A DNA stretch of 64,000 bases from assembly GCF_013085255.1 (NCBI RefSeq), contig NZ_JABFCX010000002.1, forward strand, positions 796,501-860,500, in the 5' to 3' direction. Both the position numbers and the translations under genes were made by a program. A model generated the notes under the pieces. The model saw only the letters and a program-made list of their open reading frames with translations. It was not told the origin of the DNA and searched no databases. Each line of letters begins with the position of its first letter. The first letter of the stretch is position 1. Positions 47,233 through 50,851 of this stretch are shown here, piece after piece. Source of the stretch: Parvularcula mediterranea. Its GTDB lineage: Bacteria > Pseudomonadota > Alphaproteobacteria > Caulobacterales > Parvularculaceae.

Positions 47233-47260
47233 CAAGCTTGCGCTAGCTGCCCCTCCTCAA

Positions 47261-47336
47261 GCCGCATTAGCTCAGGTGGTAGAGCATCTCATTCGTAATG
47301 AGGAGGTCGCTGGTTCGAGTCCGGCATGCGGCACCA
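47261..47336 (+). tRNA. tRNA-Thr (anticodon CGT)
   Basis: A complete 76-nt cloverleaf: acceptor GCCGCAT pairs with ATGCGGC. The D arm reads TTAGCTCAGGTGGTAGAGCA, the anticodon loop TTCGTAA, and the T arm is GCTGGTTCGAGTCCGGC. CCA is genome-encoded. The anticodon CGT reads ACG, so threonine. Confidence 0.95.
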
Positions 47337-47399
47337 TTCGCTTCCGGTCGCGCAAAGCGCGATCAAAAGGTCCGGGGGACCTTTTCAAGGAAGCGAATG
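47335..47399 (+). repeat. Three-way-junction palindrome abutting tRNA-Thr
   Basis: An outer 11-bp perfect stem pairs 47335-47345 with 47389-47399. Inside it are two further hairpins back to back: GGTCGCGC-AAA-GCGCGATC (47346-47364) and AAAAGGTCC-GGG-GGACCTTTT (47365-47385). Only CAA (47386-47388) is left unpaired at the junction. The outer stem begins inside the tRNA CCA end. It could be a tRNA-processing or termination structure, a mobile palindromic element, or a stable small RNA. Confidence 0.7.
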
Positions 47400-47920
47400 C
47401 CCCGGCAGGGGCTGTCCTCCGCTTCCCCTAGAATAAGTTGTTGTCTGCCTCGCGCGCGAAAGGCGTGGCGACTCTTTACGCGAAGCATTTCCTTGCGGCC
47501 GCGTGTCCATCAGCGACCCTCCGTAAGAAGCGGCCCCCATCCCTTAACGCGTTCGTTGACGCCTTCACGCCGCATTCTAGGCAAAATGTGGGGAGAGCAG
47601 GCTTTTTGCGGGCGCTCAGCCAAAGCACAGCCCCGATCATGCCTCAGATAGTACTTGAACCGGGCAAATGAGGCAGGGCCTTGGCTAGCGGCCCGACTCT
47701 GAAAAAGCCACGTTTTCAGATATCAGTATTTCTCCCGAAAAGAGACAGATTATTTTCTGGTCTATTTTGGAACAGACGCTGAAAACCCAAGAAATACACC
47801 GAAAATTCGAAGATATTTCTTTCTAGGTTAACCGCTGTTAGTCAAGTTTATTAGAACGATTTTACGAGACTTCGCCGCAATCTGTGCCCCGGGAACGAAC
47901 CAATTCCGAGGGGAATGACT
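47400..47920 (+). other. Non-coding, partly AT-rich region upstream of the autotransporter
   Basis: About 520 bases with no convincing ORF. A GCCCC-GGCA-GGGGC hairpin lies at its start (47399-47412). From about 47700 the sequence becomes markedly AT-rich compared with the rest of the window. It contains an 8-bp inverted repeat, AAGAAATA (47789-47796) and TATTTCTT (47814-47821). The promoter and control region of the protease gene are probably here, but no clear -35/-10 pair was found. Confidence 0.5.
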
Positions 47921-50851
47921 ATGTGGCGTAAAACACTGCTCACCACCGTCGCCGGCGCCGCCATCGTGGCCAGCCCTGCACTCGCACAAGCAGAAGAGCC
48001 GCGCTTTGAACCACGCTTTGGAGACATCCAGGCGTTCAGCGGCGACTTCCACGCCTTCTACCTCGACATCTCTCCCTTCATGGGGGACCTGCAGCCGTTC
48101 ATGGGTGACATTCAGGCCTTTGGCCGGGACTTCCACCCGTTCCTCGGCGACATCACGCCTTTCTACGGCAGCGTCAGCCCGCTCTGGGGCAATATCGAGC
48201 CTTTCTGGGGTGTCGATATCCAGCCCTTCGCCGGTGACCTTCATGCCTTCTGGGGCGACCTGACGGCCTTCCGCCTCGATATCCAACCCTTCATGGGCGA
48301 CATCCAGCCGTTCTTCGGCGACATCCACGCGTTCGAGGACAACCTCCGCAACATCGGCGACTACTGGGCCGCTGCCGGTCCGGCATGGGGTGAGATCTAC
48401 GCTGAGTGGACCCGCCTCCGTGACGCTGGTGCCAGCAAGGCCGAGTGGGAAGACTTCGAGCGCAACTATCTCGACCCGTTCTTCGCCGAGGCTGAAGCGG
48501 TCTGGGGCGATGCCCTTGGCAGCAAATGGAACGGCACGCTCAAGGACCTGCTCGACGAGTACGGCATCGACCTGCGCCGTGAGCAGAACATGGCCAATGT
48601 CGATGGCGCGACGCTGTCGGAGTTTTTCCTCGCCTATTACGACAGCCTGATGGCCACCGCAGGGATCGACATGGTCGATCACTGGATGCCGATGATCAAC
48701 TGGCGCCCGTCCATTACCCAGGACCAGGGCATGGGTGTCGGTGCCGACATCGGCCTGATCGACGCGCGCATTCTCCCAGAAGAAACCGCGATCGAGTACA
48801 TCCAGCAGGCTGGCGGTCACGAGGGTGCGCCGAGCATCCACGGCGCTGCAGTCGCGAGCATCATGGCCGCTCGCCATGATGGCCAGGGTGTGATGGGTAT
48901 CGCACCTGGCGCTACGGTCCACGCCTACAACCCGTTCGATCACACCGGCACGGCAAGCGCGAGCGATGTTGCGCAAGGTGTCCGCGACCTCGCCCACCGC
49001 GGCGTTGGCGTCATCAACATGTCCCTCGGTGTCCCGGGCTATACCCTGCACCAGGACATCGCCGACATGCTGACCACGCCGAACCTGTCGAGCGTCGAGG
49101 GTCGTGTCGTCATCGTCACCGCGGCTGGTAATGACGGTGTTGCTCAGACCGACGACATCGACTGGGACCACCGCGGCATCAGCCACGAGAGCCTCCTCGT
49201 TGTCGGCTCGGTGGGCCTGACGGGTGAGATCTCGAGCTTCTCGAACACGCCGGGCACGGCCTGCATCAACGTTCGCGGCGGTGACTGCGGCGTCGGTGAG
49301 CGCCTGATGGACCGCTTCCTGGTTGCACCTGGCGAGCTGATCCTCGTTTCGGACAATGCCGGCGGCACGACCCGCGCTTCGGGCACCTCGTTCGCAGCAC
49401 CGATGGTCACAGGCACGATCGCGCTCATTCAGGACTACTGGCCCTGGATGAACCGCCACGCTGAAACCACCGCCGACATCATCCTGCAGACCGCCACCGA
49501 TCTTGGCGAAGCAGGCGTCGACGAAGTCTATGGCCACGGCCTCCTCAACGTCGAAGCGGCCCTGTCGCCGCTCAACTTCAACGACCTCGTCATCTATCTC
49601 GATGATGGCGTTAGCGGGTGGAACAACACCGCTGCCGTGGACCTCGCAGCCGCTGCGATCGATCCGGGCCAGCTTGATCTCTGGGAAGCCTCGGGCGCAT
49701 CGATCTACGCCTACGAGTTCGTCGGAGACACGTTCCGCGACTTCGAAATTCCGCTCTCGACCCTCCTTCACGGCCAGCAGGGCATCTTCGAGAACTACCA
49801 GCGTCACGTGCAGCGCCAGATGATGCAGTGGGCCAACAAGTCTTCGCAGCACATGGCTGCAACCCAGACCCTGGCCGCGAACGACTTCTGGTCGCTTGAG
49901 TTCACCCAAGACGGCACCACCCAGGGCGGAGGCATGCTGACCTTCACGAGCCAAGACCGCGGCATCCGCATGGTCGCCGGTCTCGGCAACCAGATGCAGG
50001 GCCTCTCGACCGTCAACGGCTTCGATGGCGTCAGCGACTATGAAGTCACCACCGGCGGCGCGAACCCGATGCTGGGTCTCGCTTCGGGTGGCGGCTACGC
50101 AGCCCTGTCCTTCGAGCTCGACAAAGCGCTGACCATGACCTTCGGGTACACCGGCACGCCGCTGGAGCAGGTCCAAGTCGACCAACGCACGGGCCTCGAG
50201 ATGGATGGTGATGCTCTCTTCGGCCGCCGCGATGCCCTCGCAGCAACGGCAGAGCTCGCCTTCCAGGCCACCGAGAAACTGCGCGTCGGTGCGGCTGTCA
50301 CCAGCCTCAACGAAGAGCGCTCGGCGCTTGGCTCGGCTGGCGCAGGTGCCCTTTCGATGACCGAAGACGCCCTGACCACGGGTCTCACCATGTCGGCCGT
50401 CTATGACCTAACCAGCCGGATCAGCCTCGCTGCCAGCGCCACGGGTGCCCGCACGAACGAGACGGATACGGCGAACGGTGGCCTTGGCGTTGCCGATCAG
50501 GGCCTCGACAGCTCGGCCTTCCAAGTGAAGGCGGACGTCTTCCGTCTCCTCTCGGAGCGTGACCGCCTGACCCTCTCGGCCGCCCAGCCGCTGCGTGTCG
50601 AGGACGGTGCCATGCGCTTCACCTCGGTCCAGGTCACCGACCGTACGACCGGCGATACCGGTCTCGCCAGCGACGACTGGCAACTGGGTCAGGGTCCCCG
50701 CCATCTCGCCTTCGAGGCCGACTATTCGGTCAGCTCCGAAGACAATCGTTGGCAGCTTGGCGTCTATTCTCGCTTCGACCTTAACGATGTCGATATCCAA
50801 GGGCGCTTTAATGAGCTCTCCGCCGGAGCCCGCATTGCGGTGACCTTCTAA
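47921..50851 (+). CDS. S8 (subtilisin) autotransporter serine protease with heptad repeat domain
   Basis: 976 residues. The signal peptide ends PALAQA near residue 24, followed by 15 tandem heptads (residues 34-139). The subtilisin-like protease has its triad at Asp281 (GLIDARI), His307 (IHGAAVASI) and Ser490 (ASGTSFAAPMV). The last approximately 270 residues show amphipathic beta strands ending GARIAVTF with a terminal Phe, as in an autotransporter barrel. The ATG at 47921 is chosen because GAGGGG lies 7 nt upstream; the ATG at 47915 is too close to it. The protein should be secreted and display or release its protease. A histidine kinase gene follows 24 nt later. Confidence 0.88.
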   Translation: MWRKTLLTTVAGAAIVASPALAQAEEPRFEPRFGDIQAFSGDFHAFYLDISPFMGDLQPFMGDIQAFGRDFHPFLGDITPFYGSVSPLWGNIEPFWGVDIQPFAGDLHAFWGDLTAFRLDIQPFMGDIQPFFGDIHAFEDNLRNIGDYWAAAGPAWGEIYAEWTRLRDAGASKAEWEDFERNYLDPFFAEAEAVWGDALGSKWNGTLKDLLDEYGIDLRREQNMANVDGATLSEFFLAYYDSLMATAGIDMVDHWMPMINWRPSITQDQGMGVGADIGLIDARILPEETAIEYIQQAGGHEGAPSIHGAAVASIMAARHDGQGVMGIAPGATVHAYNPFDHTGTASASDVAQGVRDLAHRGVGVINMSLGVPGYTLHQDIADMLTTPNLSSVEGRVVIVTAAGNDGVAQTDDIDWDHRGISHESLLVVGSVGLTGEISSFSNTPGTACINVRGGDCGVGERLMDRFLVAPGELILVSDNAGGTTRASGTSFAAPMVTGTIALIQDYWPWMNRHAETTADIILQTATDLGEAGVDEVYGHGLLNVEAALSPLNFNDLVIYLDDGVSGWNNTAAVDLAAAAIDPGQLDLWEASGASIYAYEFVGDTFRDFEIPLSTLLHGQQGIFENYQRHVQRQMMQWANKSSQHMAATQTLAANDFWSLEFTQDGTTQGGGMLTFTSQDRGIRMVAGLGNQMQGLSTVNGFDGVSDYEVTTGGANPMLGLASGGGYAALSFELDKALTMTFGYTGTPLEQVQVDQRTGLEMDGDALFGRRDALAATAELAFQATEKLRVGAAVTSLNEERSALGSAGAGALSMTEDALTTGLTMSAVYDLTSRISLAASATGARTNETDTANGGLGVADQGLDSSAFQVKADVFRLLSERDRLTLSAAQPLRVEDGAMRFTSVQVTDRTTGDTGLASDDWQLGQGPRHLAFEADYSVSSEDNRWQLGVYSRFDLNDVDIQGRFNELSAGARIAVTF
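48020..48337 (+). repeat. Fifteen tandem heptads, consensus GD[IL]xPFx, in the protease
   Basis: Residues 34-139 of the autotransporter read as 14 seven-residue units plus one eight-residue unit, for example GDIQAFS, GDFHAFY, GDLQPFM and GDIQPFF. Each has Phe or Leu at position 6 and usually Asp at 2. DNA units of 21 nt have diverged, so this is an old coding repeat rather than a recent expansion. Confidence 0.9.

Follow-up and report, generated by a model that had tools for sequence, protein, structure and literature searches.

The 77 nt at 47336-47412 of the window (the whole stretch of DNA analysed, 64 kb in length) are probably one member of a structured, non-autonomous, MITE-like or REP-like repeat family dispersed through marine alphaproteobacterial genomes, whose copies would be placed in trans at tRNA 3′ ends and at the apices of hairpins. 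At the level of sequence, comparison among genomes establishes its multicopy state, the retention of its fold, its exact placement at tRNA ends, one clean empty site, and the nesting of copies within one another. What appears to be new is a small dispersed bacterial palindromic element in which a three-way-junction fold is combined with an exact, strand-specific position at the CCA end of tRNAs; no description of the element was found in the open-licence literature searched. It provides a natural experiment on how strong structure abutting the CCA is tolerated during tRNA maturation, and an instance of a small mobile element that appears to be guided less by sequence than by structure.

Anatomy of the unit behind tRNA-Thr(CGT)

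The tRNA gene and the parts of the element, all on the + strand, are as follows.

47261..47336, + strand: tRNA-Thr(CGT) gene with encoded CCA, host of the element (ARAGORN; Rfam RF00005, 66.8 bits)
47336..47412, + strand: 77-nt element in its ATTC...GAAT form, from A76 of the tRNA to the end of the GGCA hairpin (model R1, 96.1 bits)
47336..47345, + strand: 5′ strand of the outer stem, partner 47389-47398, with an optional 11th pair C47335-G47399 (folding, covariation)
47346..47364, + strand: hairpin 1, 8 bp in the window copy, loop 47354-47356 (folding, covariation)
47365..47385, + strand: hairpin 2, 9 bp, loop 47374-47376, its apex being the nesting place of another copy in genome G020 (folding, nesting)
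47389..47398, + strand: 3′ strand of the outer stem (folding)
47399..47412, + strand: terminal hairpin GCCCC-GGCA-GGGGC (alignment, covariation, folding)

The boundaries of the element were taken from alignment A1, which holds 18 copies from six genomes (G000, the genome of the window, with G003, G005, G015, G018, and G037), and from a 75-nt empty site in Aquisalinus. Covariance model R1 was built from the same 18 copies, 14 of which have the ATTC/ATTT tRNA form, and R1 may therefore favour such matches. The window copy is the top-scoring R1 copy in its own genome, but it is itself a member of the training set. RNA folding reproduced the structure given in an earlier note on this DNA, namely an 11-bp outer stem (47335-47345 with 47389-47399) around two hairpins (8 and 9 bp, each with a loop of 3 nt), with three unpaired bases at the junction. 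The fold of 86 nt reached −44.7 kcal/mol (z −5.45) with none of 200 shuffles equally good, and 79 nt folded as single-stranded DNA gave z −7.51, again with none of 200 shuffles as good. The outer stem is an 11-nt pair of 100% complementarity, one of 23 inverted pairs in the window at a minimum length of 11 and a distance limit of 120. The earlier note had drawn the structure at 47335-47399; its three-way junction was correct, but the conserved hairpin at 47399-47412 had been missed, and the unit runs from 47336 to 47412. G47399 is both the last base of the stem and the first base of the terminal hairpin, and only A76 is common to the tRNA and the 77-nt unit. The Rfam/structure scan proposed in that note gave no Rfam 15 family for the element, either with the window at gathering score or with 47250-47480 and ten loci at permissive E-values, where only tRNA and weak, implausible matches were returned. 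Further downstream in the window, 47915-50851 holds a 978-aa frame in which N-terminal PFxGDIxxF-like aromatic repeats followed by an apparent subtilase and autotransporter region were recognised by eye.

Strong G+C hairpins directly behind a tRNA gene could be read as its intrinsic, possibly bidirectional, transcription terminator, and two observations speak for this: in the window copy, the G+C core of hairpin 2 is preceded by an A-run and followed by a T-run, and a hairpin with a T-run that resembles an ordinary terminator by eye stands behind the corresponding tRNA-Thr in the congener G003. A terminator nevertheless seems very improbable. No terminator-like site was found by pattern scan on the + strand between 47100 and 48000, and the orientation of the hairpin-2 arms is not conserved: among the 31 tRNA-linked copies that could be scored (4 of 35 fell outside the apex pattern), the 3′ arm carries a T-run in 18, an A-run in 12, and a mixed run in 1. 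Termination has no support at the level of sequence patterns. A home-made scan, in which some rows were mislabelled (L002 and L005 among them) and which is not relied on, failed to distinguish tRNAs with the element (18 of 64 marked within 200 nt) from those without it (13 of 59).

Copy number, spread, and conservation of the fold

BLAST searches with the element found close copies in its own genome (3.21 Mb), where R1 gave 13 matches, two of them overlapping on opposite strands, and hence 12 places, 4 of which are at intact tRNA ends (Thr, Leu, Tyr, and Val). Across this genome and 60 relatives, copies were detected by R1 in 31 of the 61; by family, positive genomes number 23 of 37 in f1, 5 of 6 in f2, and 3 of 6 in f5, with 0 of 6 in both f3 and f4. 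Copy number was highest in G003 (37 copies), which is grouped in one genus with the window genome and G005, the names P. maris for G003 and P. lutaonensis for G005 being inferred. The search for copies in the genome and its relatives that the earlier note had proposed was thus positive. In a thin sample of the class, for which strict filters were used and few candidates were scored per genome, 4 of 337 genomes were R1-positive; two of these, G182 and G196, lie outside the order, and the copies in G182 stand behind tRNA-Leu(GAG) and tRNA-Pro(CGG). A pattern scan of named genomes demanded ACC before the element, so its set is biased towards tRNAs; it returned 52 stretches, in 46 of which (counted as loci) an R1 copy was confirmed. 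The confirmed genomes belong to Henriciella, Maricaulis, Parvularcula, Aquisalinus, Marinicauda, Robiginitomaculum, Hyphobacterium, and less precisely named bins, and the six stretches without an R1 copy come from Bradyrhizobium, Devosia, genome bins of Verrucomicrobia, Sphingobacteriales, and Bacilli, and Caballeronia. The window copy had no match in a plasmid collection. Among viral contigs, 93 stretches fit a short pattern, and a model search of 80 of these gave one copy (in L285), too few to suggest a phage vehicle.

When the junction is drawn as in the earlier note, 89.5% of the cells in A1 are paired and the covariation score is 0.407, compared with 0.138 for shuffled alignments; when two bases are moved from hairpin 1 to hairpin 2, these values become 92.4% and 0.482 (0.146 shuffled). 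The shifted junction fits the family better, which suggests that the junction may migrate. Alignment A2 comprises 110 distinct model matches that were fitted to the model and hence lean towards it; 92.3% of its cells are paired, and its covariation score of 0.580 compares with 0.152 after shuffling and 0.059-0.123 with slid partners. Two-sided changes occur at 31 of its 32 pairs, a positive answer to the covariation check set out in the earlier note. Alignment A3, made of 50 matches from the pattern-scan loci, gave 92.1% paired cells, two-sided changes at 23 of 32 pairs, and a score of 0.500 as opposed to 0.140. The outer stem holds the one exception, an unpaired GTAG-like/CGGA-like internal loop that is found in many copies and leaves 66, 39, and 63 of the 110 unpaired at three pairs. 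In A1, some stretches of the hairpin-2 apex and the terminal hairpin show almost no sequence variation. In two loci of one genus (L094 in G029 and L098 in G025), tRNA-linked copies were seen with another sequence in place of the terminal GGCA hairpin.

The strand that folds was approached through the balance of G-U pairs and A-C mismatches. With the internal loop and the apex column excluded, this balance is 22:5 in the tRNA copies of A2 and 41:14 in its other copies, and in A3 it is 29:18 (p 0.14, not significant). The apex column was dropped only after a frequent C-A mismatch had been seen there in one form, and keeping this column gives 64:29 in A2 and 29:33 in A3. A yardstick of 65 tRNAs showed 4.68% G-U; ARAGORN marks standard pairs only, and hence there is no A-C rate for comparison. 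Taken as they stand, these counts modestly favour the tRNA strand as the folding strand, and either RNA or single-stranded DNA would be compatible with them.

Placement at tRNA 3′ ends and within other palindromes

In a rescan of 99 loci from ten element-rich genomes, chosen among the matches listed, 113 R1 matches were obtained. Of these, 35 directly adjoin the 3′ end of an intact tRNA gene and share its strand, and no antisense copy at a tRNA end was found among the 113; the offset from A76 is 0 in 28 cases, 1 in 6, and 2 in 1. Nine further matches lie behind ACC or ACCA without an intact tRNA, including one in which the tRNA is cut by the contig end (L196) and one behind a displaced tRNA-Leu(CAG) end (L204), and the remaining 69 have neither an intact tRNA nor ACC(A) before them. 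There are 37-43 tRNA matches per genome (eight of ten genomes checked), except for 27 in the fragmented G012, and the window genome has 39, of which 4 carry the element. With ~40 tRNAs per genome, only a minority of them is therefore occupied, and the occupied tRNAs differ from species to species. Given ~40 tRNA matches in ~3 Mb and 35 of 113 copies abutting one, chance would be negligible, a judgement made from these proportions rather than from a computed null. In A2 and A3 pooled, 67 of 153 distinct copies are tRNA-linked and stand behind 15 isoacceptors, led by Leu(CAA) with 10, Thr(CGT) and Leu(TAG) with 9 each, and Ala(GGC) with 7, a set that is biased by the ACC selection of A3. The CCA is preceded by A at 34 of the 35 tRNA-linked copies in A2. 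The tRNA-linked copies start in two ways: 28 of 35 share A76 (ATTC and variants), and 7 of 35, mostly from one genus (G012 and G020), start with CTTC behind the CCA. Among the non-tRNA matches, 60 of 78 start with CT.

Other repeats were also noticed at tRNA ends. A second repeat, roughly TCTCACGGCGCG...GCGCCTCCGATGGGGCGG, was seen by eye behind several Parvularcula tRNAs whether the element is present or not (L011, which is the tRNA-Thr of G003, downstream of position 1576, and the tRNA loci of L045, L046, L040, and L055), and is perhaps a separate tRNA-trailer module. The CCA of tRNA-Thr and of tRNA-Tyr in L022 and L053 (G018) is followed directly by a palindrome of another kind, TTTTTCGAG...CTCGAAAAA.

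tRNA 3′ ends are the usual entry point of integrases that read one tRNA sequence, and the location of the element at such an end would suit a recombination site, or a scar left by a genomic island or by an integrase that targets tRNAs, as would two duplicated tRNA ends: in G057 a repeat of the tRNA-Leu(CAG) 3′ end lies ~12 kb off and is followed by the element, and in G020 the 3′ end of tRNA-Trp is duplicated in front of an element. However, the 27-nt repeat of G057 ends exactly at the CCA, so that the element, which lies outside the repeat, looks like a displaced passenger. An integrase with one tRNA sequence as its target would not be expected to leave a single unit behind 15 isoacceptors, the tRNA-Thr end occurs only once within the 64-kb window, and the 69 of 113 matches away from both intact tRNAs and ACC(A) also argue against such a site. 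The recombination site proposed among the candidates of the earlier note thus found no support, and we regard it as scarcely probable. The ~12 kb of G057 between the intact tRNA-Leu(CAG) and the 27-nt repeat of its 3′ end (G057:C1:113084-125049), in which an rhs-like gene was recognised by eye, resembles an island that entered at the tRNA and would have displaced the element beyond it.

Away from tRNAs, the flanks of 67 copies are mutually complementary, with a mean of 4.69 versus 3.48 (sd 0.24) in within-genome permutations, 0 of 300 of which reached this value; the set includes nested copies and repeated P. maris contexts, so the copies are not all independent. Judged by their flanks, many non-tRNA copies sit inside another palindrome, and many others do not. 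Two places in G020 show one copy set precisely into the hairpin-2 apex of another, the first behind tRNA-Tyr and the second behind the duplicated tRNA-Trp end, and G012 has a similar composite near tRNA-Leu(TAA). In L117, L126, L157, and L158, 3′ halves that start near the hairpin-2 apex were seen by eye downstream of tRNA-linked copies.

Several copies are associated with genes. The rhs-like genes of several genera contain copies, sense or antisense, near a conserved YDP...DPIG stretch; those recognised by eye are L102 (G040:C1:1275000-1283500), L101 and L088 (G028), L075 (G014), L096 (G017), and L237 (G196). Open frames run across the antisense copies in the rhs-like frames of G040, and the sense copy of G014 contains a stop (by eye). 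At the apparent 3′ end of groEL, a copy supplies the last codons and the stop in L114 (G037), L208 (G057), and L086 (G033), again by eye. A copy was also observed at the same place in L065 (G000) and L195 (G005), the 3′ end of apparently the same gene (..GGGTCACGATGCAGATG), the element sequences being different. Such places common to species also fit vertical retention with selection.

The presence or absence of copies was compared at corresponding tRNAs. At tRNA-Val(GAC), A. luteolus (G015) has the tRNA, the element, and the flank, whereas A. flavus (G049) is without exactly 75 nt; the two species agree at 93% over 102 nt in the tRNA region and at 86% over 300 nt in the flank, and no target-site duplication is visible at this filled/empty pair, the one clean site. 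At tRNA-Ala(GGC), A. luteolus has an extra element between the CCA and an older element that it has in common with A. flavus, and the flank behind is unchanged. The tRNA-Thr(CGT) of A. flavus permits no simple comparison, the matching flank lying ~1 kb from the tRNA in A. luteolus. None of 8 congeners has the element directly behind the CCA of the tRNA-Thr(CGT) of the window, but in one of them (G008) a copy lies behind ACC 66 nt downstream of the corresponding tRNA, and the locus is therefore not simply empty there. Mean identity between tRNA-linked copies is 0.681 within a genome (58 pairs), 0.662 at the same tRNA in congeners (8 pairs), and 0.629 at different tRNAs in congeners (77 pairs). 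In 16 of 35 cases the copy most similar to a tRNA-linked one comes from the same genome, with 3.4 expected. Identity within a genome is thus hardly above that at the same tRNA in congeners, and no significance test was applied to the two values; the clustering by genome would fit spread or gene conversion alike. The clean empty site at tRNA-Val(GAC) favours spread over gene conversion, as a single pair that could also reflect a precise loss in A. flavus. With its copies, its covariation, and these cases of presence and absence, the mobile palindromic element that the earlier note had listed as one candidate gained support.

The same observations bear on a role in the transcript. The element could be a structured 3′ trailer RNA that dispersed in ancient times, was homogenised by gene conversion, and is kept because it protects or times the 3′ maturation of tRNAs and the 3′ ends of mRNAs (groEL and other genes). 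The compensatory evolution of the fold, the apparent folding of the tRNA strand (G-U against A-C 22:5 and 41:14), and the copies at the apparent groEL 3′ end of G033, G037, and G057 are as such a trailer would have them, and joint folding of tRNA and element yields two separate domains. A trailer kept for its function is harder to reconcile with the occupation of a minority of tRNAs (4 of 39 tRNA matches in the window genome) in a set that varies by species, with 0 of 8 congeners having the element directly behind tRNA-Thr, or with the clean absence at the tRNA-Val of A. flavus; furthermore, the G-U bias is weak in A3 (29:18, p 0.14), and some copies are antisense inside rhs-like frames. We therefore consider a trailer RNA of this kind unlikely, although it deserves to be weighed.

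For the dispersed mobile repeat that we prefer, the folded single strand would be the substrate recognised by an activity acting in trans, and new copies would be placed at helix ends and apices, with tRNA 3′ ends as a preferred class. A tRNA-linked copy would then probably join the 3′ trailer of the pre-tRNA and be tolerated there. We put forward, as a tentative suggestion, that the insertion machinery may read tRNA 3′ ends as a class (many isoacceptors, the same base, the same strand) together with hairpin apices, and not a DNA target sequence; such an element would leave no target duplication and could nest in its own apex. If this were true, folded single strands (DNA, or RNA itself) would be recognised by an enzyme new to such a purpose.

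Comparison with known repeats and candidate partners

REP sequences, described in PMC8266576 as palindromes of 20-50 nt after a conserved tetranucleotide that is mostly GTAG, are mobilised in REP/REPIN systems with RAYT (TnpA-REP), and the element resembles them in being short, multicopy, hairpin-forming, and non-coding, with a folded single strand as the presumed substrate. Many non-tRNA copies also have a GTAG-like tetranucleotide near their start. The differences are that the element has 77 nt, with a three-way junction and an extra hairpin, instead of the 20-50-nt palindrome of that description (PMC8266576), that its tetranucleotide falls within the outer stem and is missing from the window copy, that many copies stand exactly at tRNA ends, and that its own genome has no Y1 transposase match. 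An identity with REP/RAYT was rejected on account of the multibranched 77-nt unit, the lack of GTAG in the window copy, and the lack of a Y1 match in the genome.

The Rickettsia palindromic elements are alphaproteobacterial palindromes of 100-150 bp that, in passages of PMC2229807 and PMC3767692, are described as intergenic and also as lying in open frame inside genes, to which the copies in rhs-like frames may be compared. They are set apart by that description, with other hosts, another fold, and no tRNA-end habit in those passages. The CIR, reportedly the Caulobacter/Brucella intergenic repeats of Chen and Shapiro 2003, are likewise alphaproteobacterial intergenic repeats with conserved secondary structure. 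According to PMC2229807 they have a linker between two arms and carry GANTC in a loop or close to one, whereas the element has one closing stem around two hairpins. GANTC occurs in 6 of 113 and 13 of 50 copies and is absent from the window copy; identity with CIR, as described there, was rejected for this absence and for the different anatomy.

In the tyrT operon of E. coli, the rtT repeats include a portion of the tRNA and are not known to occur beyond that operon; the element is similarly tied to tRNA 3′ ends, but contains only A76 and is dispersed. The attC sites of integrons have the R′/L′ cores GTTRRRY ... RYYYAAC, and an attC site was rejected, either core being found in 0 of 18, 3 of 113, and 0 of 50 copies and absent from the window copy. 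Bacterial MITEs (Correia/NEMIS, RUP, and ERIC) are, like the element, small, non-coding, dispersed, and strongly base-paired. Most of them have a terminal TA and target-site duplications according to PMC2229807, and the element differs in having no visible target-site duplication at one filled/empty pair; a classical TA-type MITE was rejected on this one clean site. In broader terms, the element is MITE-like in being multicopy, non-coding, structured, and present or absent at orthologous sites (one clean site and one added copy).

RAYT/Y1, IS110, and reverse transcriptase were considered as mobilising partners, and none of the three families tracks the element. The Y1 transposase domain PF01797 was found in 3 of 61 genomes, 2 of them among the 31 with R1 matches, and had no match at an E-value of 1e-5 in the own genome or in G003. 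PF02371 (IS110) was found in 4 of 9 element-bearing genomes versus 3 of 10 without R1 matches, and PF00078 (reverse transcriptase) in 3 of 9 versus 1 of 10. One copy in the own genome (L066, G000:C2:499083-499159) lies beside a stretch that resembles, by eye, the C terminus of a RAYT transposase, in a genome in which PF01797 has no match. Among the matches listed, at least five short GIY-YIG matches were located within ~300 bp of copies in four genomes (G003:C18:19671, G057:C14:507, G057:C10:650, G049:C1:1343329, and G015:C1:467157). The own genome has one GIY-YIG match only, inside a 658-aa frame of UvrC size, which we take to be UvrC, and many short GIY-YIG genes elsewhere have no adjoining element. 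The GIY-YIG neighbours of copies are of more than one type by eye and vary in orientation; it is possible, as a lead only, that GIY-YIG genes are partners or co-residents of the element.
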